Below are positions 468 to 21,007 of a DNA stretch of 27,884 nt, piece after piece. Position numbers and translations under genes: made by a program. Source of the DNA: a virus. How positions within the stretch are numbered: the first letter of the stretch is position 1; each line of letters starts with the position of its first letter. The DNA is taken from the IMG/VR virus record IMGVR_UViG_3300006027_000046, positions 1 to 27,884 of that record. The stretch is one strand, 5' to 3'. The notes under the pieces were generated by a model, which had not been told where the DNA came from, searched no databases, and was given only the letters and a program-made list of their open reading frames with translations.

Positions 468-1007
468 GTGGCTGATAAAAAGGGCAAGAAAGGTATGGCT
501 TTGGTGATTGCGGTTGGGCCGAAGATGCCCAAGAGTCCTACGGATACAGCGACACCTGAAAAAATGAAAAAATATGGGTCAATGCCGATGAAAAAGGCGT
601 TTGAGTTGCTAAAAAGGTACGGAGCACCTGATAAAAGAGATTTGATGGCTGCTTTGGGCAGAACTGGATACAAAAACCCTAGTTTAGTTGAAGACCCTGA
701 AGATTACAGGCGAGAAATGGCTATGCGAGAAGCAAAAGAAGGTTTGAGAGGAGATAAACCTGACGAGCAAAACCCATTAACAATGGAAGAAATGATGGAA
801 GCCGATAGACGTTTTAATCAAATGAGAGAAATGGAAGGTGCTCCACCTGATGTTAGAACTGGCGAGCCTATGGATTTGGCATTTAGATTACTCAAAGAGT
901 CTATTGACCCTAAAAAGTTAGCAGAGATGAGAGCAGCGAGAGATGCTGCAAGAGCACAATTAGGACAAAGAAACCCCAATAGGGGTGGCGATGTAGACCC
1001 TATGTGA
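468..1007 (+). CDS. Hypothetical charged protein with two copies of the AFxLLK tag
   Basis: No family recognised. The 179-residue product is very rich in Lys, Arg, Glu and Met and looks largely helical or disordered. It carries two copies of the peptide that recurs in this window: residues 41-48 (MKKAFELLK, preceded by SMP) and residues 133-142 (EPMDLAFRLLK). The second copy begins at an in-frame ATG at 870, so a 45-residue tagged tail could exist by internal initiation or cleavage. The start is GTG at 468 with a weak AAGGGG nine bases upstream; ATG at 495 is an alternative. It is the first gene of the rightward set and is followed after 40 bases by another tagged gene. A head-interior or assembly role is inferred only from the tag and the context. 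Confidence 0.75.
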   Translation: MADKKGKKGMALVIAVGPKMPKSPTDTATPEKMKKYGSMPMKKAFELLKRYGAPDKRDLMAALGRTGYKNPSLVEDPEDYRREMAMREAKEGLRGDKPDEQNPLTMEEMMEADRRFNQMREMEGAPPDVRTGEPMDLAFRLLKESIDPKKLAEMRAARDAARAQLGQRNPNRGGDVDPM

Positions 1008-1019
1008 AAATCACAACTG

Positions 1020-1047
1020 TTTTAGAATAACACCCTGTGCGACTAGC
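1020..1047 (+). promoter_or_regulatory. Probable TATA-type promoter for a leaderless GTG gene
   Basis: TTTTAGAA at 1020-1027 is centred about 24 bases before the GTG start at 1048, and no Shine-Dalgarno sequence is visible before that GTG. The spacing matches archaeal TATA boxes of leaderless transcripts. Confidence 0.35.
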
Positions 1048-2310
1048 GTGGATATTTTCAATTCTGCTTGGGTTTTTCTAAAAGCCACTAGAGAAAGTAG
1101 GAAAAATAGTCCTGCAAGAAAGAGAAAACAAGCAGCAGGTATGACTGACCGTTCACAAGCAACTTCTAATTTAATGTCTGATGCAGACAGAGCAGCAGTT
1201 CGTGCTCAGAAAAGAAGAAAAGTTGACCCTAAAAAGACAGATATGCTTTTAGACAGACAAAATCGTGGTGTAATTGCTAGAGAAGCCATGAGAAGAAAGA
1301 AACATTCAGAAAGAGAGAAAAGAAGAGAAGCAGCAGCGAGAGCAAAAGGGGAAACTTACGAAATGAAACCTTATATTTCTCCTGATGAAAAAAGAGGTAG
1401 AGGTCTAATTCTTCCAGAATCCGATAAAACTTTCAATATAAGAGAGGGTGGACGACAATTTACTATAAATGAGGCCGGAATGAAACGTTCAATTGATGCT
1501 GCTAAAAATAAAGCGTTAAGAACTAGGAATAAATTAGCCCAAAGAGAGTATCAAGCACCTTTTAATAATAATTGTGAAAATAAAACGTGTCCTGATGGCA
1601 ACCCGCCGTTTCAAAGTCGTTGGGAAAGAATATTTGGATTATGCGGTCAATGTTTGGAAGATGAAGGGATACATGGTTCAGAAATTGATTATGATAGAGA
1701 TAAATTATTACATATGCAAGAATATTTTGGTGGTCCTGAAGCCACGTTCACTGGATTAGACCAAGAAGAAAGAAAGAAATTAGGCGGTGTATTTTCTGCC
1801 GATGGAAGTCTTGCATTTAGAAATCAACAAGAAATGGACGATTTCATTACTTCTAATTATCCTGAAGTGTCTGAAAAAGAAAAACAAGGGTTAGTTGCAG
1901 AACTAGGAAGACAAGCACAAATTAAAGAACAAGAGGGTAAAAAACTATACCCGTCACTATATGATGATAAAAAGATGAATACTTTCTTTGATAGACAAGA
2001 GTTAGAACGTTCAGGACGACAAGCAGCAGCCGATAGAGCCGCTTTAGAGCAACAACAACAATTCCAACAGAATATATTAGCAACTGGAGATAACAAAGTA
2101 GGTGTTATGGAAAGAGATAATCTACGAGTTGCTGCTCAAAACTCGAATGTAAATCCAAACTACGCAGGTTTGAGTCAAGATGCAATTAATAGACAAAATG
2201 CACAAAGAGCAGCACAACAACAAAGAGCACAATTAATGGCACAACTTGGAAATTTAACAGATGAGCAAAAACAAGCAATACTAGACCAAATGCCGGATGA
2301 ACAAGTTTAG
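1048..2310 (+). CDS. Hypothetical basic protein with N-terminal tag and a four-Cys cluster
   Basis: No family recognised. The 420-residue product begins with the tag (MDIFNSAWVFLK, residues 1-12). A strongly basic helical stretch follows (about 20-100). Next is a likely Zn-binding cluster with Cys176, Cys181, Cys199 and Cys202, in a CxxxxC...CxxC arrangement. The C-terminal third is Gln/Ala-rich (about 330-415) and is probably coiled coil or disordered. The start is GTG, with a TATA-like box about 24 bases upstream and no Shine-Dalgarno sequence, which suggests a leaderless message. Function is unknown; nucleic-acid binding in the head is plausible from the charge and the Cys cluster. Confidence 0.8.
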   Translation: MDIFNSAWVFLKATRESRKNSPARKRKQAAGMTDRSQATSNLMSDADRAAVRAQKRRKVDPKKTDMLLDRQNRGVIAREAMRRKKHSEREKRREAAARAKGETYEMKPYISPDEKRGRGLILPESDKTFNIREGGRQFTINEAGMKRSIDAAKNKALRTRNKLAQREYQAPFNNNCENKTCPDGNPPFQSRWERIFGLCGQCLEDEGIHGSEIDYDRDKLLHMQEYFGGPEATFTGLDQEERKKLGGVFSADGSLAFRNQQEMDDFITSNYPEVSEKEKQGLVAELGRQAQIKEQEGKKLYPSLYDDKKMNTFFDRQELERSGRQAAADRAALEQQQQFQQNILATGDNKVGVMERDNLRVAAQNSNVNPNYAGLSQDAINRQNAQRAAQQQRAQLMAQLGNLTDEQKQAILDQMPDEQV

Positions 2311-2313
2311 TAT

Positions 2314-2331
2314 ATAAAACGCAAGTTTTAT
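2314..2331 (+). terminator. Perfect 7-bp AT-rich hairpin with GCAA loop
   Basis: ATAAAAC-GCAA-GTTTTAT directly follows the stop codon at 2310 and continues into TTTAC. It may be a weak terminator. Its right arm also supplies a TATA-like TTTTATTT about 30 bases before the ATG at 2360, so it may instead belong to a promoter. Confidence 0.3.
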
Positions 2332-2359
2332 TTACACACTACGTGTAGCATATATACAG

Positions 2360-2563
2360 ATGAGTGCGAGCCAAAGAGCGTTTGATGATGCTTGGTTGAT
2401 GTTAAAGTCTCAGCCTGTAGGAATGTCATTTACTAAATCTCAAAGAGACAAAATTGTTCATACAATTGTTAAGATGATGCAAAGTGATAATCCTGAAATG
2501 ATAGAAAAAGCCACAGAATTGTACAGTCTTTACAATAATTCTTTCGATATTACACTCAATTAA
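2360..2563 (+). CDS. Small tagged protein, unknown function
   Basis: The 67-residue product has the tag near its N-terminus (residues 7-17, AFDDAWLMLK). A short helical region with basic and Met-rich residues follows (about 25-60). No domain is recognised. A TATA-like TTTTATTT lies about 30 bases upstream of the ATG, and an imperfect palindrome around CTACGTGTAG lies between. The 3' end overlaps the converging leftward gene by eight bases. The tag plus little else suggests a small adaptor or head-interior peptide, but this is inference. Confidence 0.7.
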   Translation: MSASQRAFDDAWLMLKSQPVGMSFTKSQRDKIVHTIVKMMQSDNPEMIEKATELYSLYNNSFDITLN

Positions 2564-2882
2564 AACCAGTCGTTGTGCCAGCGTTTTCTCTAGCGTCTGT
2601 AGCGGCTTCTTGTATTTTATTACCTATATCACCTAGTTTAGCACCAACTTTCTTCCCTGCTTTTCGACCAGCCATTCCACCAAGTAGTGAACCAACTCTT
2701 GCACCAATTGCTGTTCCAACTATAGGAACTGCACTTCCAATCGCAGCACCACCAGCAGCACCAAGTGCAGCACCTGCCGCAGTTCCACCAGCAGCACCTC
2801 CAACAGCACCTAATTGCCCTTCATTTGTTTGAGCACCACCATATTTCAAAACAGACCATGCTTCTTCAAATGGGTCGGCCAT
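2556..2882 (-). CDS. Glycine-zipper membrane protein with N-terminal tag
   Basis: This is the only leftward gene in the window. The 108-residue product opens with the tag (MADPFEEAWSVLK). It continues with a long Gly/Ala-rich hydrophobic stretch (about 24-72) with repeated GxxxG/AxxxG spacing typical of glycine-zipper helices that pack in membranes, broken by a PIVG turn, so two helices are likely. The C-terminal ~30 residues are basic and polar. The ATG at 2882 is chosen because it places the tag at residue 1; a longer frame upstream would read into the promoter of the neighbour. The opposite strand is also open here, but its translation is a proline/alanine shadow without the tag. Possible roles are membrane penetration, internal-membrane association or host lysis; none is shown. 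Confidence 0.75.
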   Translation of the reverse strand: MADPFEEAWSVLKYGGAQTNEGQLGAVGGAAGGTAAGAALGAAGGAAIGSAVPIVGTAIGARVGSLLGGMAGRKAGKKVGAKLGDIGNKIQEAATDARENAGTTTGFN

Positions 2883-2911
2883 AATAAGCGGAGGAAGGGG
2901 AAGGTAAAAAT
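2879..2911. promoter_or_regulatory. Short divergent promoter region
   Basis: Only 27 bases separate the two divergent start codons. CATAATAAG at 2879-2887 lies about 27 bases before the rightward ATG at 2910. On the other strand, a T-rich box opposite 2903-2911 lies about 25 bases before the leftward ATG. Each promoter therefore overlaps the start of the other gene. A GGAGG at 2890-2894 can also serve the rightward gene as a ribosome binding site. Confidence 0.3.
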
Positions 2912-3827
2912 GCTGTCGCCTTTCGTAAGACCTATCATGTACGTGGGTGTTATCCAGAAAGCACCCGTAGATTTTTCTACTTATCGGCAAGAACAAGATA
3001 ATGGAAGAACAATTCATACTGCTGATGCTTTTGAAGATGCAAGTGAAGCAAACGAATACACTTCTCCTGATTATAAACTAAGAGCAGTAACAGAAGGTTT
3101 AGGTGGTAGAAAACCGTTTGCACAAGTTGTTGCAGGACAAGTAGGTAAAACACCAATAGGCACAGATACAGTAGACCAAAGTTTTGGAGAGCCTACTAAT
3201 ATTAGAGGTAAGGCCACTTTTAGTAGAGTACCTGCAAGAAAGGATTTTAAATTGGACGATGAAGAAGCAGGGAATTTAGCAGCAGACAGTCTTTATGTTG
3301 ATGAAGAAGATAGAAGACGAGGTGTTGGTTCTGATATGTATGATTTAATGACACATATAGGAGAACAAAAAAATATGAATTTAGTTGAATCTGAAAATCA
3401 AACTCCTGATGGAAAGAAATTTTGGAGTGGAAGTGGTCAAGAGGGTCAATGGAGAATTAATAGAAGTGAACCTATGAATATAACTTTTCAATTGTTAAAA
3501 CGTCAAACTAAACTTCCTGAGTCAGTAACACAGGGTGCATCGGTTGCTACACGGCCAATTGGGGAGTGGTTCAAACCCCCAACACCAACAAAACCTGTTG
3601 ATAATACGCAAGGTACAAGTCAAACTTCACTAGATGATTTTGGTAAAGCCAAAAGTTACATTCAAGATAGACCAAAACGACTCGCACAAGCCAAAGTACA
3701 ACGTCTTAGCCGAAAAGTTAAGAACGCACGTACACAACACAAGTACAAACGTAATTTGGCTCGTGGAGCAATTAGACCAAAAATGAGGACACAAACCGGA
3801 TTAATTAGAGTAACAAGGAGTAGATAA
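2910..3827 (+). CDS. GNAT-like acetyltransferase domain protein with internal tag
   Basis: The 305-residue product has a GNAT-type core in its middle. Residues 127-150 read SLYVDEEDRRRGVGSDMYDL, matching motif A (beta strand, then R/Q-x-x-G-x-G/A for acetyl-CoA pyrophosphate). Residues 150-175 resemble the motif B segment with the usual 'DGKKFW' ending. The N-terminal part of the fold is short, so substrate and activity are uncertain. A tag copy follows at 187-197 (EPMNITFQLLK). The last ~60 residues are very basic. Residues 238-244 (QTSLDDF) resemble a sliding-clamp-binding motif. The ATG at 2910 has GGAGGAAGG upstream. The architecture looks like an enzyme domain joined to an assembly tag and a DNA-binding tail. 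Confidence 0.65.
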   Translation: MLSPFVRPIMYVGVIQKAPVDFSTYRQEQDNGRTIHTADAFEDASEANEYTSPDYKLRAVTEGLGGRKPFAQVVAGQVGKTPIGTDTVDQSFGEPTNIRGKATFSRVPARKDFKLDDEEAGNLAADSLYVDEEDRRRGVGSDMYDLMTHIGEQKNMNLVESENQTPDGKKFWSGSGQEGQWRINRSEPMNITFQLLKRQTKLPESVTQGASVATRPIGEWFKPPTPTKPVDNTQGTSQTSLDDFGKAKSYIQDRPKRLAQAKVQRLSRKVKNARTQHKYKRNLARGAIRPKMRTQTGLIRVTRSR

Positions 3828-3828
3828 G

Positions 3829-4125
3829 ATGAACCCAATAGATGCAGCATTTTCTTTTTTGAAAGCAGAATCAGGACCAATGAGACAATTGATGAATAAT
3901 CCAGCCGACCCACAGAGCGAGTTAGTCGCTGGTGATGATGAAAAATTACAACAAGCATATGAAGAAGCACATAAAGAAATAGATGAGCATCATAAGAAAA
4001 AACAATTAGCACAAAAGAAGAGACATGAAATGCAACACAGAGATGCAAAGAAAGATGTTGATAAATTTTATGAAGACAATCATCCTGAATTTTATGAAAA
4101 ATTAACTAAACCTGAATTTGACTAA
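3829..4125 (+). CDS. Small helical protein with N-terminal tag
   Basis: The 98-residue product begins exactly with the tag (MNPIDAAFSFLK, residues 1-12). A highly charged helix or coiled coil rich in Glu, Lys and His follows (about 35-85). No family recognised. AAGGAG upstream of the ATG is a good ribosome binding site. The gene starts one base after the GNAT-like gene and is followed after eight bases by the next gene, so the three are probably cotranscribed. The tag plus coiled coil suggests an adaptor or scaffold accessory, by inference. Confidence 0.75.
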   Translation: MNPIDAAFSFLKAESGPMRQLMNNPADPQSELVAGDDEKLQQAYEEAHKEIDEHHKKKQLAQKKRHEMQHRDAKKDVDKFYEDNHPEFYEKLTKPEFD

Positions 4126-4133
4126 GTGATTAT

Positions 4134-5072
4134 ATGACAATGTATCGTAAACTGATAGAAGATTACGATAGAAAACGTGCTCTTTATCCTGAAAAAATTG
4201 GTAAGTTATCTTCTAAACAATTTTTAAATATGTTAAATGCAGGTGTTTCATCACGAGATAGAAAGTTACTAAATAGAGAATTAAAATATGGACAAAGAAA
4301 TCTTAGGCAACAAGACATTTTTGATTCTATTAATAGACATAATAAAAGAAGTTTATACCGACAGTTGAAAAGACCTAGATATACAACAGAAGAAAAATAT
4401 GGAAGAGAACAAAAGTGGCCTGATGAAAAATCTTACCAAGATTGGATGTTTGCTAATTTCAGATTTGAAACAGATAAAAGAAGAAAATTGAATGATTTAG
4501 GAATAAAGACTGGTTTACCGCACACGCCTAGAGAACACGATGGAATGCCTAGTGATTATGCAGCGACAGAAAAACAACAAGAACAATACAAAAAATGGCT
4601 CGATGAACATCCTTTCATTAATGAGATGTACAGACAACAAACTAGTGACCCTAAAACTATAGATTTACTAGACACTTCAGATGAATACAATCAGTGGTTA
4701 CAAAGTCACAAGGATGATGTACCTGACATATATCAGAACTATCAGACTGACATGATGGACTCTGCTAATTTAAACGCTGGTTTTGGGTTTAGAAGAAGTG
4801 AACCAATGAACATAGCCTTCCAATTACTGAAAGAACGTAAGTCACCTCAAGCGTTTGCTAACAAAAAGAAATATGATAGCGAATATCAAAAAGACCCAAA
4901 ACGTGTAAAATATCGTGAGCAACTAAATGCAGAACGTAGAAGAAGAGGAATATACGGTAAAGGTGGGAAAGATGTCAGTCATACACAAGGTGGAAAATTA
5001 ACATTAGAAAGTGTACACTCTAATAGAGCAAGACACTTTAAGAATAAGGGAACGCTTAGGAGAGTGAAATGA
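4134..5072 (+). CDS. Basic protein with internal tag and HNH-like C-terminal segment
   Basis: The 312-residue product has an unrecognised, charged N-terminal two thirds. A tag copy follows at 223-233 (EPMNIAFQLLK, Met225). The basic C-terminal segment (about 245-312) contains GKDVSHTQGGK...SNRAR. This resembles the HNH-like tail of many phage proteins, where a 'DV-H..GG' strand-turn is followed by 'NR.R'. Only one of the expected metal/catalytic His is evident, so nuclease activity is doubtful. The ATG at 4134 is preceded by AAGTGATT; ATG at 4140 is possible. The stop overlaps the start of a 24-codon gene. Internal initiation at 4806 would yield the tail alone with the tag at its N-terminus. 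Confidence 0.7.
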   Translation: MTMYRKLIEDYDRKRALYPEKIGKLSSKQFLNMLNAGVSSRDRKLLNRELKYGQRNLRQQDIFDSINRHNKRSLYRQLKRPRYTTEEKYGREQKWPDEKSYQDWMFANFRFETDKRRKLNDLGIKTGLPHTPREHDGMPSDYAATEKQQEQYKKWLDEHPFINEMYRQQTSDPKTIDLLDTSDEYNQWLQSHKDDVPDIYQNYQTDMMDSANLNAGFGFRRSEPMNIAFQLLKERKSPQAFANKKKYDSEYQKDPKRVKYREQLNAERRRRGIYGKGGKDVSHTQGGKLTLESVHSNRARHFKNKGTLRRVK

Positions 5073-5143
5073 AACAAAGTTTACCTTTGAAGAAAGTGAA
5101 AACGTGCAAGAGATTTAATTGGTGGAAGTGTGAATTAATATGA
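5069..5143 (+). CDS. 24-residue basic micro-ORF bridging two genes
   Basis: The frame starts at an ATG that overlaps the previous stop (ATGA) and ends in a TGA that overlaps the next ATG (ATGA). A strong AGGAG lies upstream at about 5058. The peptide is basic with two Cys and two adjacent Trp (CKRFNWWKC near residues 13-21). The perfect double overlap and the ribosome binding site argue for real translation, either as a peptide or for translational coupling. No family is known to me. Confidence 0.5.
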   Translation: MKQSLPLKKVKTCKRFNWWKCELI

Positions 5144-5322
5144 ATTGTGAATGTGGTCATTGTGTAGGTATGGATGGAGCATGGGATATGCTTGAAAAGA
5201 AATTATGTCCTGCTGGTAAAGCGGCAGCAAAAAGAAAGTTCAAAGTTTATCCATCTGCTTATGCTAATGGTTGGGCTGTACAATATTGTCGTGGCAAGTT
5301 TAGGGGGAAGAAAAAGAAATGA
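5140..5322 (+). CDS. Small Cys-rich protein with tag and 'YPSAYAN' domain
   Basis: The 60-residue product begins with a Cys cluster (Cys3, Cys5, Cys8), then a tag variant (GAWDMLEKK, residues 13-21). A small basic domain with the sequence AAAKRKFKVYPSAYANGWA follows. That last segment is widespread in virion-type proteins of marine phages and giant viruses (a DUF5872-like family, name uncertain). The function of the family is unknown; charge and size suggest a head-interior DNA-associated protein. It overlaps its neighbours by four bases on both sides, indicating coupled translation in the 5069-6189 group. Confidence 0.75.
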   Translation: MNCECGHCVGMDGAWDMLEKKLCPAGKAAAKRKFKVYPSAYANGWAVQYCRGKFRGKKKK

Positions 5323-5531
5323 ATCATATTGCTAATGTGAAAGCATGGAATCTTCTCAAAGGGAAAGAGGATGCACCAAATTACAGGAAAGCCACAGGAC
5401 CAAAAAAATGTGGTAATTGTAAAGCATGGGATTCTTCAAAAACAAATGACCCAATGACAGGGTATTGTGAAATGTATGATTTTACTTGTAGAGCAGACCA
5501 TACTTGTGATGCATGGGTGAGTAGAAAATGA
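5319..5531 (+). CDS. Small tagged protein with HiPIP-like five-Cys pattern
   Basis: The 70-residue product carries the tag at residues 4-14 (IANVKAWNLLK), then NYRKATGPKKCGNC. The Cys pattern is C31-x2-C34-x15-C50-x6-C57-x5-C63, ending in CDAW. The 'Y.....G...CG.C......C......CD.W' layout recalls the high-potential iron-sulfur-like small proteins common in phage genomes, which bind Fe-S or Zn. I cannot tell which metal. Start and stop overlap both neighbours by four bases. Confidence 0.7.
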   Translation: MNHIANVKAWNLLKGKEDAPNYRKATGPKKCGNCKAWDSSKTNDPMTGYCEMYDFTCRADHTCDAWVSRK

Positions 5532-5836
5532 CACGTTGCACTTGCCATGATACTTTGATTGTTAAAAATTTAAATCGTTGGTTTAAAGAAAAATGGGTAG
5601 ATGTTTCAAGAAAAGACAAAGACGGTAAACATCCACCATGTGGAAGAAGTAAAGCAAAACTTTCAGGGAAGGGTTATCCTAAGTGTAGACCTTCTGTAAA
5701 AGTTTCAAGTGATACACCAAAAACATCTGGTTCTATGAGTAGTGGACAAAAACAAGCAGCAACAAAAAGAAAAAGAGCCAAAAAACAAGGTGTTGGTGGA
5801 AAACCTACTATAGTGAAAATGGTTGGGGTGATATAA
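5528..5836 (+). CDS. Small basic protein with 'WVDVSRKDKDGKHPPCGR' domain
   Basis: The 102-residue product begins with a short Cys/His cluster (Cys4, Cys6, His7) and a helical segment around NLNRWFKEK that may be a degenerate tag. A conserved small domain follows: WVDVSRKDKDGKHPPCGR then YPKCRPS. It recurs in marine phage and giant-virus proteins of unknown function. The C-terminal half is Lys-rich and disordered. It overlaps the previous gene by four bases and the next by one (TAATG). A role as a basic internal virion protein is inferred. Confidence 0.75.
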   Translation: MTRCTCHDTLIVKNLNRWFKEKWVDVSRKDKDGKHPPCGRSKAKLSGKGYPKCRPSVKVSSDTPKTSGSMSSGQKQAATKRKRAKKQGVGGKPTIVKMVGVI

Positions 5837-6189
5837 TGGAGCACGAGCCTTGTAGTTGTTGCACTCCTTTTCAACAAGCAACAGTTGCTTTGATGGACAG
5901 TGTTTTTGAAAAGGCTAAGAAAAAATCAAAACCGTTTCATGGTTATAATCCAAAAAGGCATCATAGAAAAGGTGGACTTAATCAAGCAGGACGAGACAAA
6001 TTTAAAAGAGAAACTGGGGCAAATCTCAAACCCCCGGTAACTACAAAACCATCTAAATTAAAACCCGGCTCTAAAAAAGCAAAAAGAAGAAAGTCTTTCT
6101 GTGCAAGAATGGGTGGAAGTAAAGGACCAACTAGCAAAGATGGTAAATTAACACCAAAAGGTGCAGCATTGAAAAGATGGAATTGTTGA
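5836..6189 (+). CDS. Small basic protein with 'RRKSFCARMGG' domain
   Basis: The 117-residue product has an N-terminal Cys cluster (Cys6, Cys8, Cys9), a tag-like helix (VALMDSVFEKAKKK, about 17-30), and then the segment GGLNQAGRDKF...LKPPV...RRKSFCARMGG...KRWNC. This C-terminal module matches a small domain (DUF6321-like, name uncertain) found in marine phages and large eukaryotic viruses. Its function is unknown. It ends the tightly overlapping cluster begun at 5069. The same N-terminal plan of Cys cluster plus tag helix occurs in three of these small genes with different C-terminal modules. Confidence 0.8.
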   Translation: MEHEPCSCCTPFQQATVALMDSVFEKAKKKSKPFHGYNPKRHHRKGGLNQAGRDKFKRETGANLKPPVTTKPSKLKPGSKKAKRRKSFCARMGGSKGPTSKDGKLTPKGAALKRWNC

Positions 6190-7253: not shown

Positions 7254-7967
7254 ATGATGACAGGTGGCAGCGTATTAGTAGGTGCTGCCTTATACGGTCA
7301 AGCGTTATATAATTCTTGGAAACCTAGGAGAGTAGGAATATATGGTACTAGTATGGTTGGTAAAACTACCTTAGATAGATATATGACAACACCGGGTGAA
7401 ATGGAAGAAATTCCTATAGATGAAAGAACTGACCATTTTAAATTAATAACTAGATATATATTACCTAAACCTACACGAAAACGAATTAGTTATTCCGGTG
7501 AAAAAAGAGTTGTTTATTCCTCTGATGTAGGAGGACATGATAGATTTTGGAATCTTTGGATAGATGATATGGTTGCAAGACAAGTTGAATGCGTTGTATA
7601 TATGTTTGACGATAGGGCTTTTGCAGGTGGTCCTGATGGTATAGACCAATTAGCCGGATTCAAGTTTTTAGTTGATGCTTTGATAAATCGTAATTATAGG
7701 TATAGAACTCTTAAAAGTAGATGGAAGGGTAAAAAGTATGCTCCTAGATTACTTATGTTAGTAGCAAATAAGGCTGATAGATTCTTTGATAAAAGTGCAG
7801 CAGATTTATGGTCACAAGGAAGAATAGGTGAACATAAAATTTTTGACCCGTTTAGAGATGAGTTGATTAGATTGCAAAAAGCAAACCTACCAACAAAACG
7901 TGCTTTCATGGCAACTAGGGTAGGTTGGAACGTAGAACCAACAATGGTAGATTTATTGACTACATGA
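7254..7967 (+). CDS. Small Ras/Arf/SRbeta-like GTPase
   Basis: The 237-residue product shows the GTPase motifs in order: P-loop GTSMVGKT (31-38), switch II DVGGHD (91-96), base-recognition NKAD (172-175) and a G5-like ATRVG (220-224). A hydrophobic N-terminal stretch (about 4-20) may anchor it in the membrane. The length and the DxGG switch fit the extended Ras superfamily. The position of the Ras catalytic Gln is His, as in the signal recognition particle receptor beta subunit (DLPGHE), which also has an N-terminal anchor. GAGGTG precedes tandem ATGs at 7254 and 7257. It follows two membrane protein genes. A role in targeting or remodelling at a membrane is inferred; the partner is unknown. 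Confidence 0.8.
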   Translation: MMTGGSVLVGAALYGQALYNSWKPRRVGIYGTSMVGKTTLDRYMTTPGEMEEIPIDERTDHFKLITRYILPKPTRKRISYSGEKRVVYSSDVGGHDRFWNLWIDDMVARQVECVVYMFDDRAFAGGPDGIDQLAGFKFLVDALINRNYRYRTLKSRWKGKKYAPRLLMLVANKADRFFDKSAADLWSQGRIGEHKIFDPFRDELIRLQKANLPTKRAFMATRVGWNVEPTMVDLLTT

Positions 7968-7973
7968 GTGACC

Positions 7974-8002
7974 TTTTTTATGTGTAACGGTGTCGGATGT
8001 AT
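7974..8002 (+). promoter_or_regulatory. Probable promoter for the AbrB-like gene
   Basis: TTTTTTATG at 7974-7982 is centred about 25 bases before ATG 8003 and about 19 before ATG 7997. This favours a leaderless start at 8003. The T run could also end the upstream transcript. Confidence 0.3.
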
Positions 8003-8185
8003 ATGGCGAGAGGTGCGACGAGTACTGTTTTAGTTCCAATTGGTGGAGCGAGTAAGTCACTTAGGACTACTGTGCCTATGTGGATTATTAAACAATTTAA
8101 CCTCGATGCTGGCAGTAAACTTAATTGGAGAATAGACATCGAAGGCGACGAGATGCTCATCAAAGTGTCTCCTGTGGAGAAGTGA
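8003..8185 (+). CDS. AbrB/SpoVT-like swapped-hairpin DNA-binding protein
   Basis: The 60-residue product has the hallmarks of the AbrB fold: a 'SLRTTVPMWIIKQFNLDAGS' strand-helix segment, followed by LNWRIDIEGDEMLIKV, which supplies the swapped beta hairpin. Proteins of this family bind DNA as dimers, usually as transcription regulators, and are common in archaea and their viruses. ATG at 7997 would add two residues. The gene is followed after four bases by a putative virion gene, so it may regulate the late genes. Target sites are unknown. Confidence 0.75.
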   Translation: MARGATSTVLVPIGGASKSLRTTVPMWIIKQFNLDAGSKLNWRIDIEGDEMLIKVSPVEK

Positions 8186-11236: not shown

Positions 11237-12494
11237 AATACTTGTAAAATCTAGTAGCGGTATCATGGGTGGTAGTGATACTAGAATTTACAACCCTAGA
11301 AGCGAATCATCACATATGTATCGTAATAATCATGAAGAAGAAGATAAGTATGGTAGAGAATCTTCAGAAGCAAGAGATGAAAGATACGATAGAAAATTAC
11401 GTATCAAAGAGAAAAAAGATAAAGAAAAAAATAAAATTAAACATATAAAAATGTCTGCTAAAGATTTAGTGGGAATAGAAGATGAAAAAGAAGAAGCAGA
11501 AGAAGGCGACAAGTTTGACACTGACCGTGAATTAAGTGCTCAAACTGGACCTGCTGGTAATATGGGCTTCTTGACAAGTTTAGCAGCCCAAGCAAAAGGA
11601 CCGGGTGCTGCGGGAGGAAGTGCTTTTGCTATGGGTGAACCGATGGAAATAGCATATCAATTATTAAAATCAAAAGAACTTAGTGAAAAAACTAAAAAGA
11701 AGAAAAGAGAAAGAAGAAAAACAAAAGAGAAAAGACAACAATGGAGACCTTCTACTGGACAATTTAAAACACCACCGGGTGGTTCTTTAGGACCAAAAGG
11801 TGCTACTGGCAGAAGGGCGAAAGGTCAAATGCGTTCTGTGAAAAGAGGCAAGTTGAGAGGTTTGATGCATGCACCATTATCTGTTGAAATGGAACATCGT
11901 GGTGTTGCAACTAAACAACCAAAATCAAAAGATGTTGGAGCATATAAAGAATTTTTAGGCCAACAAGAAGGTCGTAAAAGAATGGGGAATGTACGCTCCC
12001 CCACATCTCAACAATCAAGAAGTGGTGCTCGTAGTTATTATGCTGGAAAAACAGGTGGAGGTAGATTACAGGGGATGGCAGGTTTTCCTAAACCTCGTTT
12101 AAAACCACATCGTTTACCACCAATTACACCACCTAGAAATTTAGCAGTTCCTCATTTGAACCAACCACAAATGTCAGGTCCGGGTGCTACTGGTTACATG
12201 CCGATGCAAACTCCGTTACCATCATCTATGCCGATAGATGCAACATCGCAACCCTCAATGGTAGTAGCAAAAGGTGCTTTTGGTTTAACAACAATAGAAT
12301 TAGGTAAGATATTAAGAATTGCCGAAAGAACATTAAGGGCTAAAGAAAAGAAAAAGAAAAGTACAGGTAATAGAGAAACAGTCGATGCTGACCAAACACC
12401 AACAGGTCAGACAACAAAACCTCAAGGTGGTACTGAAGACCATCGAATGGAAAACATAGGAGGGGTGAAAGGTCTTAGGGGTAATACACAATGA
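11229..12494 (+). CDS. Basic low-complexity protein with internal tag
   Basis: The 421-residue product is rich in Lys, Arg, Gly and Pro. After an acidic/basic helical N-terminus (about 25-85) and a Gly/Ala linker, a tag copy stands at 137-147 (EPMEIAYQLLK, Met139). A strongly basic stretch follows immediately (about 150-215). Near the C-terminus a tag-like helix TTIELGKILRIAERTLRAKE is followed by KKKK. GGGTGA lies four bases before Met139's ATG at 11643, so internal initiation is possible. ATG 11229 with GGGGAT upstream is preferred over 11214. It overlaps the next start (ATGA). It is a likely head or assembly protein. Confidence 0.7.
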   Translation: MSKILVKSSSGIMGGSDTRIYNPRSESSHMYRNNHEEEDKYGRESSEARDERYDRKLRIKEKKDKEKNKIKHIKMSAKDLVGIEDEKEEAEEGDKFDTDRELSAQTGPAGNMGFLTSLAAQAKGPGAAGGSAFAMGEPMEIAYQLLKSKELSEKTKKKKRERRKTKEKRQQWRPSTGQFKTPPGGSLGPKGATGRRAKGQMRSVKRGKLRGLMHAPLSVEMEHRGVATKQPKSKDVGAYKEFLGQQEGRKRMGNVRSPTSQQSRSGARSYYAGKTGGGRLQGMAGFPKPRLKPHRLPPITPPRNLAVPHLNQPQMSGPGATGYMPMQTPLPSSMPIDATSQPSMVVAKGAFGLTTIELGKILRIAERTLRAKEKKKKSTGNRETVDADQTPTGQTTKPQGGTEDHRMENIGGVKGLRGNTQ

Positions 12495-15190
12495 GACCTG
12501 TATATTCACCTGCTGTTTATCATTCTTTACAAGACATACTTTCTTCAGGCTTAATTAAGAAAGGTGATGGAGTTGCTATGTTTCATGACGGACAATTAAC
12601 ATGGCATAGATGGCCCGCTAAAGAAGGATTCAGAAAATATGGTTATGAAGATAATTTAGGTCTAGGTATTGAAGGTGCTCCATTTGCACACACTGGAGAT
12701 GCACATTCTGAAATGTCGCCGGAAGAAGGTGGTACTGAACATGGCGTTAGAGGTAGCGGTCATAAGATAGAAGGAAAATGGGAACAGGGTAAATTTGGAG
12801 AATTGTTGGAACGTGATGGTAGCGGCGGTTTTCATATGCATGGTATAGATGGTGTTATACATGGAATTGGTAATCTTCTTGAAGATATTAAAAAACAATA
12901 TCCACAAATAAGATTACCGGACGACCCTACGTTGGCTAAACAAATAGTACAGATGGGAATCAATAATTGGAATGAAAGTAATCCTAGCAACATACACCCT
13001 GACATAGATTCATCGGAACTTAGACAAAAAGTTATTTCTTCTTTCGATAAAGGTAATAATTCGTTAAGGTCTGATGATGGTAGGTTCATTACATTACATA
13101 CTAATGCGAATGCACAAGGTCATCATTTAGGAATGAATGTAGAATCTGCGGCATTCAAACCTTTTCAACAAGTGAGTAATGTGTTAACTCAACTTCTTAC
13201 TCCTATGATGAAACCATTTGTTCCAGAAGCACAAAACAACCCTAATTGGAAATGGAGTCCTTCTACTTCAGGTTTAAATTTTTTACAAATGCCATATGTA
13301 TATGCTGACCATTTAACATATAGTATGAATCCTGCTACTGGAGAAGTTTCTTCTAGGGCTAAACATACAAAAATGGGTGAAATTACTTCTGATGCTAACT
13401 TTAGAATTCCTAGAGGTATGAAAGAACATTTTTCAGGTGCTGGATTTAATATCGACTCGGCTTTTAATGACAATACTGCTGAATCTATGATAGCAGGAGG
13501 ATTGTTACATCCCGAATACATGAAAGAAAAACCTACAACTAGGTCAGTTCAAAATTATCAAAACCCAAATAGAATGCATGGTATTTTTAAACCCGGAGGG
13601 TTACATGGTGGTCTTTTTGAAAGAATTAATAGAATGTTACCACCAGAATTTCAAGCAATATCTGACGAAAGACATCATACATCGGGCATAGAACATGCTC
13701 CTATTGACATGGAAGACCCTATTTTAGATGAATTAACATGGGTTAATACTACACCTGAAACAAAATATGATAGTTTACAAAATAAATATGTCTATGGTAC
13801 AAAACAAAAAAATACAACACATACTTTAAGAGAAGCATTAGAAAGTTGGAAAGACGCAAGAATACCAGAACAATCAACAGACCCAAAACATAGTTTAGCG
13901 AATGATTTTATAGAAACTATGAGTTCTTTAATAGGCTTTGAAACTTTAGCAGGAAACAATTCACGCAATAATAAGACTAGAAGAAATGAAGATGGTTCGG
14001 TGAAAAAGTTCGGTAGTTACCATTTACGCATAGATGACGCAATTGAAGATATGGTAGGTGCAGAAGGCAGAGAAGGCGTACCACATCTAACAACGGCTGA
14101 TTTAGTAAATCATTCTTCAAAATTTGCCGAAGGTGTTGGTTATGCGGGTCAAAAACTTTCTGATGGTAAAATAAAAATGGGAAGGGGTATGAATACTCAT
14201 GGGGCGGCAGCAAAAAGATTTGCACATGCACAAGTTAATCCTAATCTTATTAATGAAGAGTTACCACAGGAAATAAAAGAAAAACACGGTTTAACTTCAA
14301 CAATAACAACACCATATACAGAAAGTAAAGTTAACATATTAAATCATTTATCAAAATTGTTAGTAGAATCTAAAGGTTTAGAACCTGCTAGACATTTAAC
14401 AAATGAAGAATTACTTGAGGTACAACCTATGGGTAATGCTCAAATGACTAACATAAGAGGTGGTTTTCCTGATGCCGATTTAGGTATACCTGAACACGTA
14501 CAACACGCTATGGTTAGTCCTGCTATGAATACAAGAGGAGGGCAAACACCACCTGTTGCTACACCACCTGTTGCTACACCACCTGTTGTTGATACATCTA
14601 CTACATCTACTGGAGCACCTTTGAAACCTACAATCACTTCACGAGGACAAGTACAAGTGAGACCTAGTGGACAAATGACTTTGGGTGATTTTCCTAGTAC
14701 TCCATCTCAATTACCTACACCCCCTCCACCTAATTTCCAGTCTTTACTTCCAAGTGCTGTAGCGGCAAGACAACGAGCATCTCAAACACCCGAAGGTACA
14801 GAACAAGCCATGAGAGATTTATCAGATAATCAAAGATTAAGAATTACTGAAGAACAAAGGCGGAGAGCACAAAGTGCTTTTGCAGACCCGCAACAATCTT
14901 TACTTAGTGACTTTCAAAAAGCGGAGAAATTAATTAAAATGATGGAAAAATTACAATTAACTGATGCTTTTGCTGATGAAAGTGTGTTGAAACATGTGCC
15001 TAATAATAACTTGAATAAATCTTCAAGTATTGATGTTAACTTTATGGCTAAAAGATTAAATGTAACATCTCAAGATATTAGAACTATTTTACATACAAAA
15101 GGAGATTGGGAAAGAATTCATAAGACATATGGGTACAGTGATACAATTATCAAAGCGGTCAAAGTATCTTTTAGTGGGGGATTAAAATGA
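12491..15190 (+). CDS. Large hypothetical protein with clamp-binding-like motifs
   Basis: The 899-residue product is unrecognised. The first ~620 residues look globular and are rich in His, Asn and Gly, with a HMHGIDGVIHGIG segment near 115-128. Residues ~680-800 are a Pro/Thr/Gln-rich linker with a TPPVA repeat. The linker carries QMTLGDF (728-734) and, at its end, QSLLSDF (802-808), the latter followed at once by a tag-like helix KAEKLIKMMEKLQ. Both motifs resemble archaeal sliding-clamp-binding peptides. The last ~60 residues may form a small helical domain. It overlaps both neighbours by four bases. In style it resembles the 1744-residue protein at 21609, suggesting a related class of giant virion or injected proteins. 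Confidence 0.65.
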   Translation: MRPVYSPAVYHSLQDILSSGLIKKGDGVAMFHDGQLTWHRWPAKEGFRKYGYEDNLGLGIEGAPFAHTGDAHSEMSPEEGGTEHGVRGSGHKIEGKWEQGKFGELLERDGSGGFHMHGIDGVIHGIGNLLEDIKKQYPQIRLPDDPTLAKQIVQMGINNWNESNPSNIHPDIDSSELRQKVISSFDKGNNSLRSDDGRFITLHTNANAQGHHLGMNVESAAFKPFQQVSNVLTQLLTPMMKPFVPEAQNNPNWKWSPSTSGLNFLQMPYVYADHLTYSMNPATGEVSSRAKHTKMGEITSDANFRIPRGMKEHFSGAGFNIDSAFNDNTAESMIAGGLLHPEYMKEKPTTRSVQNYQNPNRMHGIFKPGGLHGGLFERINRMLPPEFQAISDERHHTSGIEHAPIDMEDPILDELTWVNTTPETKYDSLQNKYVYGTKQKNTTHTLREALESWKDARIPEQSTDPKHSLANDFIETMSSLIGFETLAGNNSRNNKTRRNEDGSVKKFGSYHLRIDDAIEDMVGAEGREGVPHLTTADLVNHSSKFAEGVGYAGQKLSDGKIKMGRGMNTHGAAAKRFAHAQVNPNLINEELPQEIKEKHGLTSTITTPYTESKVNILNHLSKLLVESKGLEPARHLTNEELLEVQPMGNAQMTNIRGGFPDADLGIPEHVQHAMVSPAMNTRGGQTPPVATPPVATPPVVDTSTTSTGAPLKPTITSRGQVQVRPSGQMTLGDFPSTPSQLPTPPPPNFQSLLPSAVAARQRASQTPEGTEQAMRDLSDNQRLRITEEQRRRAQSAFADPQQSLLSDFQKAEKLIKMMEKLQLTDAFADESVLKHVPNNNLNKSSSIDVNFMAKRLNVTSQDIRTILHTKGDWERIHKTYGYSDTIIKAVKVSFSGGLK
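14546..14590 (+). repeat. Three tandem 15-bp units (TPPVA) inside the 899-residue gene
   Basis: ACACCACCTGTTGCT is present twice exactly and a third time with one change. It encodes TPPVA repeats in the proline-rich linker. In-frame units can vary in number without breaking the frame. Confidence 0.8.
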
Positions 15191-15858
15191 GTTATGTTGG
15201 AATAAAAAAATCATACGTTGGTATAATTAAGCAACAGAGTAATGCTGCACCAGTAGCCGCCGTCAATACTATGACACCTGCTCCTGAAAGTAGTGGAGGT
15301 GGAGGTACACAAATCGGTGTAGGTAACGTTTTCACTACTGTAGATGGTAAAAAAAGAAATCTTTTTGGATTAGATGAAGAAGGAAAAAGAATGTATAGTC
15401 CTGCACAAATAGGTATAGGTCTTGCTGGTAGAGTAGCAGGTGCAGGGTTAGGTGCTTGGAATGCAGCACGAACTTTATCTGAAAGTCAAGGTGGTGATAT
15501 GATTTCTGATTTAGGAAGGGCTGGTATTGCTGGACAACAAACTATGAATCTTGGTACGGCTGCTACTAATGTAGCAATGGATGCACCGGGTAAAATTGCA
15601 GGTATGCCAAAAACAATTGGAGATTATACAACCGCAGGTACGACAAGTGGTTTTGAAAAACCAGCATTAATGCCCGATGAACAGATGTCATATCCTTCCA
15701 CTGAGGGTTTTGTAAGCACGTTAACAAAGCCGGAATCTATGCACATAGCAAGTCCAGCAACAGCATCAAATCCAGTCAAGGTTGTCGATAGCAATAAACT
15801 TCTTGATAGTATTGACCCGGAAGCAATGAAACGAGCGAAAACACTTAGAGGCCAATAG
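15187..15858 (+). CDS. Gly/Ala-rich hypothetical protein upstream of TerL
   Basis: The 223-residue product starts with a duplicated short element (SYVGIKK then SYVGIIK, residues 2-16). A Gly/Ala-rich helical segment with GxxxG spacing (about 78-100) may associate with a membrane or pack tightly. The tail is disordered and contains KPESMHIA (about 182-189), a possible decayed tag. No family recognised. The ATG is preceded by GTGGGGG and overlaps the previous stop; the stop lies eight bases before the preferred TerL start. Confidence 0.65.
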   Translation: MSYVGIKKSYVGIIKQQSNAAPVAAVNTMTPAPESSGGGGTQIGVGNVFTTVDGKKRNLFGLDEEGKRMYSPAQIGIGLAGRVAGAGLGAWNAARTLSESQGGDMISDLGRAGIAGQQTMNLGTAATNVAMDAPGKIAGMPKTIGDYTTAGTTSGFEKPALMPDEQMSYPSTEGFVSTLTKPESMHIASPATASNPVKVVDSNKLLDSIDPEAMKRAKTLRGQ

Positions 15859-15866
15859 TGATTAAT

Positions 15867-17351
15867 ATGATTGAAGATAATGAAGACATGAAATCATTCA
15901 TTATTGAAATGGATAGAAAAATGGCTAAAAAGTCATTTCATTATTTTTTTACAGAATGCTTAGAGTTTCTTTACAATCATCATCATAAATCATGGGAAAC
16001 AGGTTTAACTGAACATTCTTATTATTGTGTGAAAGCGTCAAGAGACCACGGTAAGTCTGTATTTTTTATGTCATATGCTTTATGGTTAGCAGCATTTAAC
16101 AAGAAAACACACATTATGATATTTTCTCACTCTCTTGAACAGACACTCGAACATATGAGATTTATCAGAAATTTAATAGATAATACTCCAGTACTCCATC
16201 ATTTGAAGCCAGCCGGAAAACAACCGTGGGCAAAGTCTTACTTCGAGTTTACAAACGGTAGTCGTTTGATGGCTAAATCGGTTGGTGGGGCTACTCGTGG
16301 TTTCCACCCTGATGTTGTTGTGTGTGACGATATTCTTTGGGGTACTAGTGGAACTGAACTTCAAAGAACTGCTGATTGGTTTTACGGTGTACTTCTTCCA
16401 GTTCTTCACCATAGTAGTAAATTAATGATGGTTGGCACACCATTTAGTTACAATGACTTATATGCGGAATTAGAACAAAAAGAAACATTTAGAGTTGAAA
16501 CTTATCCTGCAATTGATTCTGAAGGAGTTGCATTATGGCCTGAACGTTGGGATATGGCGGCTTTAGAACAAAGAAGACTTTCAATGCCCGCTATCCAATT
16601 TTCTCGTGAATATCTTTGTGAGCCAATTCACGATGTTGCAAGTATGTTTCCTATGGACATATTAGAGGCTGCTAGAGATACAAATTTAGTTTTATTAGAT
16701 AGAGCAGAAACAAATTACAATGAGGAAGGTGAACCGGATGGTGTTTTTGGTCAACACTTCATAGGTCATGACCCTGCTATATCTTCTGATAAAAATGCTG
16801 ACTTTACTGCGATGACTGTAATGAGACAAAAACCAAATGAACCTTTCAAAGAAATAATCCATGTTGTACATGAAAGAGGGATGAGCACAATGGCTCAGAA
16901 AAGAATGATGGTTATGTTAAATAGTCGTTTTAGCCCTGATTTGATTGAACTTGAAGGTAACAATTTCCAAAGAATGCTAGAAGCAGAAATGAGAGAAATG
17001 GCAGCAGATATGCCTATTCGAGTGTTTATGACTACAAGAACTAAAAAAGAATCTCTATTTATGAGCCTTCTTCTTGCTTTTGAACAAGGACACATTAAAT
17101 TACCATACGGAGATGAAAGAAGTAGAACATATACACATAAACTAGAACAAGAATTAAATCGTTTTGGTATGCAGAAAAATGGTAAATTAGAAAGTGTGGG
17201 AGTACACGATGACTTAGCAATGAGCCTTGCTTTGGCTAATTGGGCCACAAAAGAATTTAAGGGAAGTGTTATGCTACTCGATGATGTCATGCCCGCGTTT
17301 GATTCGTGGTTTGACAGCGGAAAAAGAAATAACGATTGGGTGATACCTTGA
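15867..17351 (+). CDS. terL: Terminase large subunit (packaging ATPase-nuclease)
   Basis: The 494-residue product has all expected motifs. Walker A is ASRDHGKS (57-64), Walker B VVVCDD (150-155) and the coupling motif GTP (190-192). An RNase H-type nuclease follows with Asp302 in GHDPA, the acidic pair in IELEGNN (about 360-366) and HDD (447-449). It powers DNA translocation into the prohead through the portal and cuts the concatemer. Length is normal for the gp17-like family. Walker B ends in DD rather than the more common DE. ATG 15867 is preferred because AGTGATT lies just upstream; GTG 15858 overlapping the previous stop is the alternative. Placement before the portal is typical, although a LAGLIDADG gene intervenes. 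Confidence 0.95.
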   Translation: MIEDNEDMKSFIIEMDRKMAKKSFHYFFTECLEFLYNHHHKSWETGLTEHSYYCVKASRDHGKSVFFMSYALWLAAFNKKTHIMIFSHSLEQTLEHMRFIRNLIDNTPVLHHLKPAGKQPWAKSYFEFTNGSRLMAKSVGGATRGFHPDVVVCDDILWGTSGTELQRTADWFYGVLLPVLHHSSKLMMVGTPFSYNDLYAELEQKETFRVETYPAIDSEGVALWPERWDMAALEQRRLSMPAIQFSREYLCEPIHDVASMFPMDILEAARDTNLVLLDRAETNYNEEGEPDGVFGQHFIGHDPAISSDKNADFTAMTVMRQKPNEPFKEIIHVVHERGMSTMAQKRMMVMLNSRFSPDLIELEGNNFQRMLEAEMREMAADMPIRVFMTTRTKKESLFMSLLLAFEQGHIKLPYGDERSRTYTHKLEQELNRFGMQKNGKLESVGVHDDLAMSLALANWATKEFKGSVMLLDDVMPAFDSWFDSGKRNNDWVIP

Positions 17352-17375: not shown

Positions 17376-18545
17376 ATGAAAATAGAAGTAGGTGGTCTTA
17401 GTATGCAGATGTTTGCAGATAACGGTGAAGGGTGGTTTGAAACTCATTTAGGTTGTACAGCATCCGACTTTGTTGGTAGACTACGAAAAGCAAGAAGACA
17501 TAATAAACATTCAAAAGAAGAAATTGATGGTATGATAGAAGATGTCAGAATGTTGAAAGCATTAGAAGTGAGAGGTACATTACAATCTGTTTCATGGTGT
17601 GGAGATTATGAAGGGGTTATACACAAATTTGGATTAAGTGATAGAGATTTAAAATCGCTTAGAAAATTTGGCGATACGAGAAAAGCCAATTTAATTCGTG
17701 CATGTAATCAATGGCAAGAAGCAGATGAACTACTTTCTAAACTTGATGAACATGTGGATGTTTGGGGTAAAGAAGAGGAAAAGGCTTGGGTACAAGCAAT
17801 GAATATAAGAAAAGATGCTAAAAAATTGTGGAAAACTACACTTCATCAAATAGATAAATTAACTGAAAAAGAAACTGATGCTTTGATAAAAAGTGCTGAA
17901 TTACTTGCAGAAAGAGGTTCAATGTCAGGTAGAGGACTTTTTGAAAATTTATCTGATGCTAAAATTTTACATAAAAGCATGACACCAATGAAATTATCAA
18001 AATTAATCAGTGTTTACGGTGAAGAAGTGGATATTATTGCAGGAGGTAAAAGAGGAACTTTTGTTAAAATGGATAAGTCCGGTTTGATATTAAAAGACCC
18101 ATATGCATATGCAGCAGGATTTTTAGATGCAGATGGTTATATTTCTATAACTAAAAGAGGAGAGCCAAGAGCAGGTTTTGTTGCTACAGGTTCAAGAGGT
18201 AAAATTCATTGTGAGCAATTACAGAAAACATTAGGTTGTGGTGTTTTACAACTAGACCAAAAAATATACAAAGATAGTCAAAGGAGTCAACATCGTTTGC
18301 AATTTTATTCTAAAGGAGATATTCGTAAGTTATTGACTCAAATACTTCCTCATTTGAAAATGAAAGACATACAAGCAAAAGCAGTGCTTGCTTTTATAGA
18401 TGAAACTGATAGTGTGAGAAAAGATGAGTTACAAAAACTAGTCAAATATAGTAATTGGAGTGATGATACTACTAAAGCAAGTGGTCTTTTAACGGAATGG
18501 GGTGTCGCTTCTGATGACATCGCCAAGTGGAAGGAGGGATTATAG
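17376..18545 (+). CDS. LAGLIDADG-domain protein with unknown N-terminal region
   Basis: The 389-residue product has a single LAGLIDADG motif (AAGFLDADG, 246-254, followed by YISI). The C-terminal ~145 residues fit one homing-endonuclease subunit, which would act as a homodimer cutting DNA. The N-terminal ~240 residues are unrecognised, largely helical and charged. They include SAELLAERGSMSGRGL (about 173-188), similar to LDVLEKGHSNMAGRGL in the 1744-residue protein. Possibilities are a selfish endonuclease between TerL and portal or a LAGLIDADG fold recruited for packaging. The start is uncertain: ATG 17376 has weak AAGAAG, while ATG 17403 has AGGTGG seven bases upstream. The stop overlaps the portal start by one base. 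Confidence 0.75.
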   Translation: MKIEVGGLSMQMFADNGEGWFETHLGCTASDFVGRLRKARRHNKHSKEEIDGMIEDVRMLKALEVRGTLQSVSWCGDYEGVIHKFGLSDRDLKSLRKFGDTRKANLIRACNQWQEADELLSKLDEHVDVWGKEEEKAWVQAMNIRKDAKKLWKTTLHQIDKLTEKETDALIKSAELLAERGSMSGRGLFENLSDAKILHKSMTPMKLSKLISVYGEEVDIIAGGKRGTFVKMDKSGLILKDPYAYAAGFLDADGYISITKRGEPRAGFVATGSRGKIHCEQLQKTLGCGVLQLDQKIYKDSQRSQHRLQFYSKGDIRKLLTQILPHLKMKDIQAKAVLAFIDETDSVRKDELQKLVKYSNWSDDTTKASGLLTEWGVASDDIAKWKEGL

Positions 18546-20686: not shown

Positions 20687-21007
20687 ATGACAGATAACGA
20701 TGTTACTGAAAAATTGATGAATACTTTGATTACAAAAATGGAATCAATGGACAATGAAATTATAAATTTAAGAAAAATGATTAATTCTCCACAAGCAATA
20801 CTGAAAAAAGCAGGGTTTGTACCAGTACGTACACCTTTTTCTGAAGATGTTGAAGTTGATGCTTTTAGAGCAGATACTTTTACTAAGTCTCAAATACCTA
20901 ATTCTGCTAATCCTGATTCTTATTCAAATGAAGAAATTCACGACATGACATGGGCCGATATACATGAAATGGCCGACCAACATAGAGAAGTAAAGGAGTT
21001 GTATTAA
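20687..21007 (+). CDS. Small acidic protein with N-terminal coiled coil
   Basis: The 106-residue product has a short coiled coil (about 8-36, LMNTLITKMESMDNEIINLRKM in outline) and an acidic, mostly extended remainder. ATAGGTGATT immediately precedes the ATG, a textbook archaeal-type ribosome binding site. The stop overlaps the next ATG by one base (TAATG). No family recognised. The position suggests a head-assembly accessory. Confidence 0.65.
   Translation: MTDNDVTEKLMNTLITKMESMDNEIINLRKMINSPQAILKKAGFVPVRTPFSEDVEVDAFRADTFTKSQIPNSANPDSYSNEEIHDMTWADIHEMADQHREVKELY

Follow-up and report, generated by a model that had tools for sequence, protein, structure and literature searches.

A recurring 12-residue peptide on dissimilar proteins of a tailed-virus lineage: a candidate virion-targeting tag

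Tag copies in the window

The stretch analyzed here, referred to as the window, is a virus record of 27,884 bases (IMG/VR record IMGVR_UViG_3300006027_000046, positions 1 to 27,884) in which a 12-residue peptide, the tag, recurs on proteins that are otherwise dissimilar. The tag consensus was [M/S/G]-[T/E/N]-[P/A]-[F/M]-[D/E]-x-A-[W/F]-x-[L/V]-L-K, with two recurrent flavours, M[NT][PA]F[DN]xAWxLLK at N-termini and [SG]EPM[DE]IAFQLLK at internal and C-terminal positions. Copies were scored with a profile trained without the window and without its near-identical relatives. Nine copies in eight window proteins scored 18–32, above the best match in 200 shuffled window proteomes (11.5), which bears out a preliminary description of this DNA in which a peptide was said to recur on many dissimilar proteins. 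The full motif string given there was exact in only four copies.

Two copies were located in gene 468-1007, SMPMKKAFELLK at 579-614 and GEPMDLAFRLLK at 861-896 (profile scores 20.9 and 30.6; plus strand, as are all copies below unless stated). N-terminal tags were found in gene 1048-2310 (MDIFNSAWVFLK, 1048-1083, score 18.3), gene 2360-2563 (QRAFDDAWLMLK, 2372-2407, score 20.9) and gene 3829-4125 (MNPIDAAFSFLK, 3829-3864, score 29.8). Internal tags follow a GNAT-like domain in gene 2910-3827 (2814/2910; SEPMNITFQLLK, 3465-3500, score 25.7), precede an HNH-like tail in gene 4134-5072 (SEPMNIAFQLLK, 4797-4832, score 32.4, the highest) and lie in gene 11214/11229-12494 (GEPMEIAYQLLK, 11634-11669, score 28.9), the last copy being kept in 63 loci. 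The minus-strand copy (ADPFEEAWSVLK, 2844-2879, score 23.6) belongs to a glycine-zipper gene at ~2556-2882. It is N-terminal, as described previously, only if the gene starts at an internal ATG (~2882), a start supported by the homolog in a related locus (L233), which begins at the same Met, with MVDPFEEAWSVLKYG. The glycine-zipper protein has GAAGGTAAG... repeats, is encoded antisense to its neighbours, and could be a membrane-inserting protein.

Two further copies had been listed in addition to these nine. One, HIANVKAWNLLK in gene 5319-5531 (5325-5360), was borderline (score 11.7, shuffle maximum 11.5), and the other, DGAWDMLEKK in gene 5140-5322 (5161-5196), fell under the profile reporting threshold and was unsupported. 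The window GNAT protein and the product of gene 5836-6189 seem to carry decayed tags near their N-termini. Gene 5836-6189 encodes a DUF6321 protein (PF19846); its homolog in a relative (G016, 60557-60895) keeps an intact tag, CTPMENAFALMK, which is decayed in the window copy.

Enrichment and conservation of the motif

A relaxed core, [AT][FWY]x[LVFM]LK, occurred nine times in the window proteins, against 0.086 in shuffles (maximum 2, 500 shuffles), and was not found in the reversed window proteins. Across 270 related loci (4,257 proteins), 822 profile matches were obtained against 4 in shuffles. The listing for the 270 loci includes a few weak families; a stricter set (182 BLAST-level families, 495 proteins) was used for later counts. 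Each of 12 related genome records contained 4–20 tag matches (0.4–0.9 in shuffles), of which one in most genomes was a conserved prohead-protease site, GINPEATF[RS]ILK, that was not counted as tag. AW..LK was the first-ranked gapped pattern in an unsupervised search of 1,037 non-redundant proteins from the 12 related viruses (53 proteins, compared with 23 for the best shuffled gapped pattern of any kind). Enrichment over shuffles and a de novo search over relatives had both been proposed beforehand as checks on the motif, and both came out in its favour. Chance and compositional bias were ruled out as its source by the shuffle, reversal and profile controls. No earlier description of the tag motif was found in the searchable literature.

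Tag position, predicted structure and the question of cleavage

Within the stricter set, 346 tags were N-terminal, 234 internal and 31 C-terminal, with up to four copies per protein (G009:51813-54695 has four internal copies). The AlphaFold model of a tagged ADP-ribosyltransferase (ART)-like protein (mean predicted local distance difference test, pLDDT, 85.8) placed the tag as a helix at residues 3–11, adjoining the first strand of the domain; the helix was modelled at lower confidence than the ART-like domain core. As modelled, the tag is a short amphipathic helix. Proline was found directly after the tag Lys once (25.7 expected) and one residue further on 101 times (25.7 expected, a four-fold enrichment), a pattern compatible with the end of a helix and also with a protease site.

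The second of these options corresponds to an explanation in which the tag is primarily a substrate of the prohead protease, LLK being cut after Lys to mark processing points or polyprotein joints, and any targeting is secondary. Lys is the final conserved tag position, and the depletion of proline right after it and its enrichment one residue further would suit such a cut, but a helix C-cap yields the identical proline pattern. The residue past the tag Lys is often M, E, Q, N or R, beyond A, S or G; C-terminal tags end 2–4 residues past Lys, where cutting would release almost nothing; and the conserved PF/PM-D-x-A-W part is unnecessary for a cut after LLK. For the major capsid protein (MCP), one [DE][IL]LK[AS]D site was present in the N-arm of all homologs, although the single site of the window-lineage MCP was not significant (p 0.11). 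In the MCP of the archaeal virus HVTV-1, all four [LIVMF]xK[ASG] sites fall within residues 1–104, where shuffles give 0.53 (p 0.0014); the other 353 residues are free of them. An [LIVM]xK context is common to the tag and the MCP N-arms. S78 peptidases commonly carry hydrophobic-x-Lys at the protease leader and at the protease-scaffold junction, and both places were for that reason down-weighted as cleavage evidence. In HK97 the cut falls after Lys, the cleavage site being K103/S104 (PMC10275583). Weighing these points, we regard a tag that is primarily a protease substrate as quite unlikely.

Cargo proteins

The number of tagged families comes from BLAST clustering, in which distant members of one fold are counted separately. 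With tags masked, the cargos were many unrelated families (~180 at BLAST level) and the tag codons diverge, so simple gene duplication was rejected as the main cause of the repeat, in line with what had been argued from the window alone.

The profile of a YHGT-type family matched solely ADP-ribosyltransferase-fold enzymes in the PDB, and its model matched KptA/Tpt1 in Foldseek with a probability of 1.00 and TM-scores of just ~0.34–0.41. In 24 ART-like paralogs (mostly 19–31% identical to the first), tag residues F, A, W and K were invariant, and outside the tag four residues were (H16, I26, G30 and A61), so that no part of these proteins is better conserved than the tag. A second cargo set, including window gene 2910-3827, gave weak matches, to GNATs only; the window GNAT gave a poor AlphaFold model (mean pLDDT 63), which was not used. 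One tagged protein has a YspA-type SLOG domain that scored slightly below the curated cut-off, and HExxH was found in 16 of the 182 tagged families (1.7 in shuffles). ParB-like and kinase-like cargo was assigned by eye only. The HNH-like tail of gene 4134-5072 matched phrog_6437; the HNH-like tagged protein had no matches among annotated phages, and single-sequence Pfam searches of cargo were mostly empty. Part of the cargo is, by these matches, enzyme-like (ADP-ribosyltransferase-, acetyltransferase-, peptidase- and nuclease-like).

PIP-box-like motifs (strict form) were counted 8 times in 85 tagged proteins (0.03 in shuffles), often straight after the tag, and 7 times in 952 untagged proteins (0.41 in shuffles). 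Window examples are QTSLDDF at 3621-3641, inside the GNAT gene, and QMTLGDF at 14672-14692, in an 899-residue protein (12491-15190); motifs of this class are enriched throughout the lineage. The enrichment of these Q[ST][TS]L motifs in tagged proteins would fit a tag whose docking partner is not the head but another viral hub inside the cell, for instance the machinery of replication or late transcription (the sliding clamp with its partners), at which the late gene products would act. A PIP-box-like motif is also present in a conserved protein near the terminase. Most tagged proteins, however, are without a PIP-like motif, the tag is itself unlike a PIP box, and few replication genes carry tags, most of which cluster on late-strand genes close to the packaging module. 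Docking to such a hub is unlikely on this evidence.

Virus lineage and distribution of the tag

The terminase large subunit (15858-17351) and portal protein (18527-20275) of the window were assigned with Pfam, and 220 related stretches were found in the IMG/VR scan. Head genes almost identical to those of the window are present in a 96 kb relative (G001), which has the order chaperonin, minus-strand replication genes, tag cluster (53.8–58.8 kb), terminase, portal, protease-scaffold protein, MCP and tail genes, several of these names being assigned by eye. The window-lineage MCP is 27–34% identical to those of the Druskaviridae group (HVTV-1, HCTV-5, HCTV-1) and of the Methanofastidiosa-associated virus vir519. 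With homologs of the MCP, prohead protease, portal and terminase arranged alike, the lineage falls in the HK97-fold Druskaviridae / marine archaeal virus clade, and the head-gene order of HVTV-1 parallels that of the tag-bearing lineage. In a published MCP tree, Druskaviridae are placed among marine archaeal viruses, magroviruses included (PMC8651126). Because of the MCP kinship, the parallel order and this tree, the window virus is very probably a marine archaeal tailed virus. A host among the Poseidoniales (Marine Group II), which magroviruses infect, was considered; a host search with the viral chaperonin against prokaryote genomes returned no relatives.

Among 50 tag-bearing IMG/VR records, the MCP of this lineage was detected in 44 and the prohead protease in 45. 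Five records were without both; one of these has the lineage portal and three more match other lineage genes (G052 via the chaperonin only), and no lineage gene was seen in the small stretch of DNA examined for the G028 fragment. The tag is, in nearly all records, confined to one capsid lineage. Tag genes lie mostly 10–19 kb upstream of the terminase, on the terminase (late) strand, and one conserved tagged gene lies at about −4.5 kb. The exact N-terminal form was found in 68 IMG/VR stretches and in none of 84,980 prokaryote genomes, and a host-derived motif was set aside for this exact form.

These distributions also bear on whether the tag is a short linear motif for binding a host protein, so as to recruit or inhibit it. 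Mimicry of host motifs is common among short viral motifs, and the tag is modelled as a short amphipathic helix. Its exact N-terminal form, however, has no visible host ligand counterpart in the prokaryote genomes, and a motif confined to one capsid lineage would be required on ~180 protein families. A host-binding tag is highly unlikely.

Exchange of tagged modules and divergence of tag DNA

The window and G001 are 99.8% identical in the terminase and mostly 90–100% identical in its neighbours, yet the tagged region is different, with unrelated cargo exchanged and the tags retained. Gene 1048-2310 has no homolog in G001, where the same place holds an unrelated protein with its own N-terminal tag (54433). 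For gene 4134-5072, residues 221–312 alone match G001 (94.6%); the matching part covers the tag, which starts at residue 222, together with the HNH-like tail, and the preceding part has been replaced. One swap boundary between the two genomes falls at the tag.

Tag codons in different genes of one locus were identical at a fraction of 0.496, against 0.387 predicted by local codon usage. This excess of identical codons and the swap boundary at the tag would be expected if the repeat were mainly an element of the DNA, namely a joint for recombination that is copied from gene to gene and whose peptide has no function, but about half of the synonymous tag codons differ between genes, and the 36-base tag DNA is usually identical at just 16–31 of 36 positions with the residues kept. 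All copies are read in one and the same frame, and the reversed and shuffled controls were almost empty. Codon divergence mostly refutes the DNA-element explanation, which we rate as extremely improbable; limited DNA copying between tag-bearing genes is possible. Since the DNA of the tag has diverged while its residues were kept, selection has acted on the peptide.

A probable virion-loading label

We consider that the tag is, on balance, probably a virion-targeting peptide that loads the proteins fused to it into the virus head. Docking or capsid targeting, in concept like that of the T4 capsid-targeting sequence (CTS), had been suggested in the preliminary description, and it is still the best reading because the tag, common to dissimilar cargo, is restricted to one lineage, lies on the late strand upstream of the terminase, is absent from cellular genomes in its exact N-terminal form and sits on cargo resembling injected phage proteins. 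The successive steps of docking, packaging and injection are proposed by analogy with the T4 CTS, P1 DarB and polyvalent proteins. The tag helix would bind a conserved component of the assembling head, candidates being the scaffold part of the protease-scaffold protein, the MCP or the portal. Any tag-fused protein would share the head with the genome and reach the next cell with it. There, cargo resembling ADP-ribosyltransferases, acetyltransferases, peptidases and nucleases could oppose the host or reprogramme it. As a weaker sub-hypothesis, the prohead protease may cut after the invariant Lys ([LIVM]xK|x), freeing the cargo inside the head; removal of the tag in this manner is possible.

Several observations weigh against loading into the head. 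The tag can be lost from close homologs of a cargo gene, as in the window copy of gene 5836-6189 compared with its tagged G016 homolog, and is therefore not essential in every case; in many tagged proteins no enzymatic domain can be recognised. The T4 CTS is N-terminal only, unlike the tag with its internal and C-terminal copies. HVTV-1, the nearest isolated relative with the same capsid, has no tag, so the tag either arose after the capsid clade or has disappeared from some of its members. In relatives (G009:19748-20416, G018:81154-81822 and G002:19452-20129), one kinase-like gene (assigned by eye) that has a tag-like N-terminus is found away from the late cluster and on the strand opposite the terminase.

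A more far-reaching version joins these elements into one plug-in loading code for the whole lineage, in which a gene that gains the tag yields a packaged and injected effector, the effector is released in the head by a Lys-specific prohead protease, and a common, rapidly changing pool of ~180 effector families is exchanged between viruses by recombination at the tag. We put this forward tentatively and consider it doubtful as a whole. Were the tag a loading label, the capsid-targeting principle of T4 and P1 would extend to archaeal viruses, and hundreds of putative injected effectors could be recognised by sequence alone in ocean viruses for which metagenomes are the only source. For uncultured viruses, it would become directly testable which proteins accompany the genome into the cell, and the tag would be a peptide to try for protein encapsulation.

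Other window genes

A C-terminal motif of the protease-scaffold protein, MSWDEVHxLA (for example L105:4711-6066), recurs as MTWADIHEMA at the end of a 106-residue protein (20687-21007); the recurrence was seen as short profile matches at model positions 417–467 and is possibly a shared capsid- or scaffold-binding end. A LAGLIDADG/HNH-like gene of homing endonuclease type (17376-18545) lies between terminase and portal. Behind the portal, a giant protein of 1744 residues (21609-26843) contains a weak, sub-threshold ATP-dependent DNA-ligase-like region at residues 1408–1533, and only its last ~390 residues match G001. A conserved 237-residue protein (7254-7967) has a P-loop-like GTSMVGKTTLDRYM and by eye the look of a small GTPase, with no Pfam match. 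A small open reading frame (7997-8185), opposite a longer minus-strand one, has by eye the look of an AbrB-type DNA-binding protein.

Comparison with known systems

The PIP box (PCNA-interacting peptide), like the tag, is a short linear motif scattered among proteins that are not related, and PIP-like motifs co-occur with the tag. The tag differs in having no Qxx[hydrophobic]xx[aromatic] pattern; its identification as a PIP box was rejected, the consensus being without Qxx[LIM]xx[FYW] and the PIP-like motifs being separate neighbours.

Polyvalent proteins of phages and conjugative elements are multidomain proteins that combine ART, peptidase, ParB-like and other domains; their genes lie near virion genes, and their injection has been predicted (PMC5512222). 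Tagged proteins likewise include ART-, peptidase- and nuclease-like domains near virion genes, in the cluster 10–19 kb upstream of the terminase. PMC5512222 does not describe a short tag that recurs, whereas the tagged set consists mostly of small single-domain proteins with a common peptide; some tagged proteins may approach the polyvalent architecture of 2–15 domains (G009:51813-54695, with its four internal tags), and most are small.

P1 DarB is a capsid-packaged antirestriction protein whose signal can direct a heterologous protein into the head (PMC9024508), which resembles the role proposed for the tag. The DarB signal was described for one bacteriophage protein and is not a recurring peptide on many cargos.

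The T4 CTS is a short peptide (~10 residues in IPIII) with separate targeting and processing residues (PMC9026906). It is common to otherwise different head-internal proteins (IPI, IPII, IPIII and Alt), as the tag is to dissimilar cargo, and the T4 cargo includes an ADP-ribosyltransferase (PMC9026906). The two peptides differ in sequence. In T4, gp21 cuts the CTS, an N-terminal propeptide; the tag is also internal and C-terminal, occurs in up to four copies and is spread over ~180 families. Packaging was demonstrated for T4; virion loading by the tag is a prediction made from sequence. The same short peptide on several dissimilar proteins, which characterizes the T4 class, was found here (~182 families), and the N-terminal propeptide position of that class was not (234 internal and 31 C-terminal copies beside 346 N-terminal ones). 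Because of these positions beyond the N-terminus, the tag was taken to resemble the T4 CTS in its proposed working and was not classed with it; it would be a new variant among capsid-targeting peptides, set apart by where it sits, how many copies occur and how broad its cargo is.

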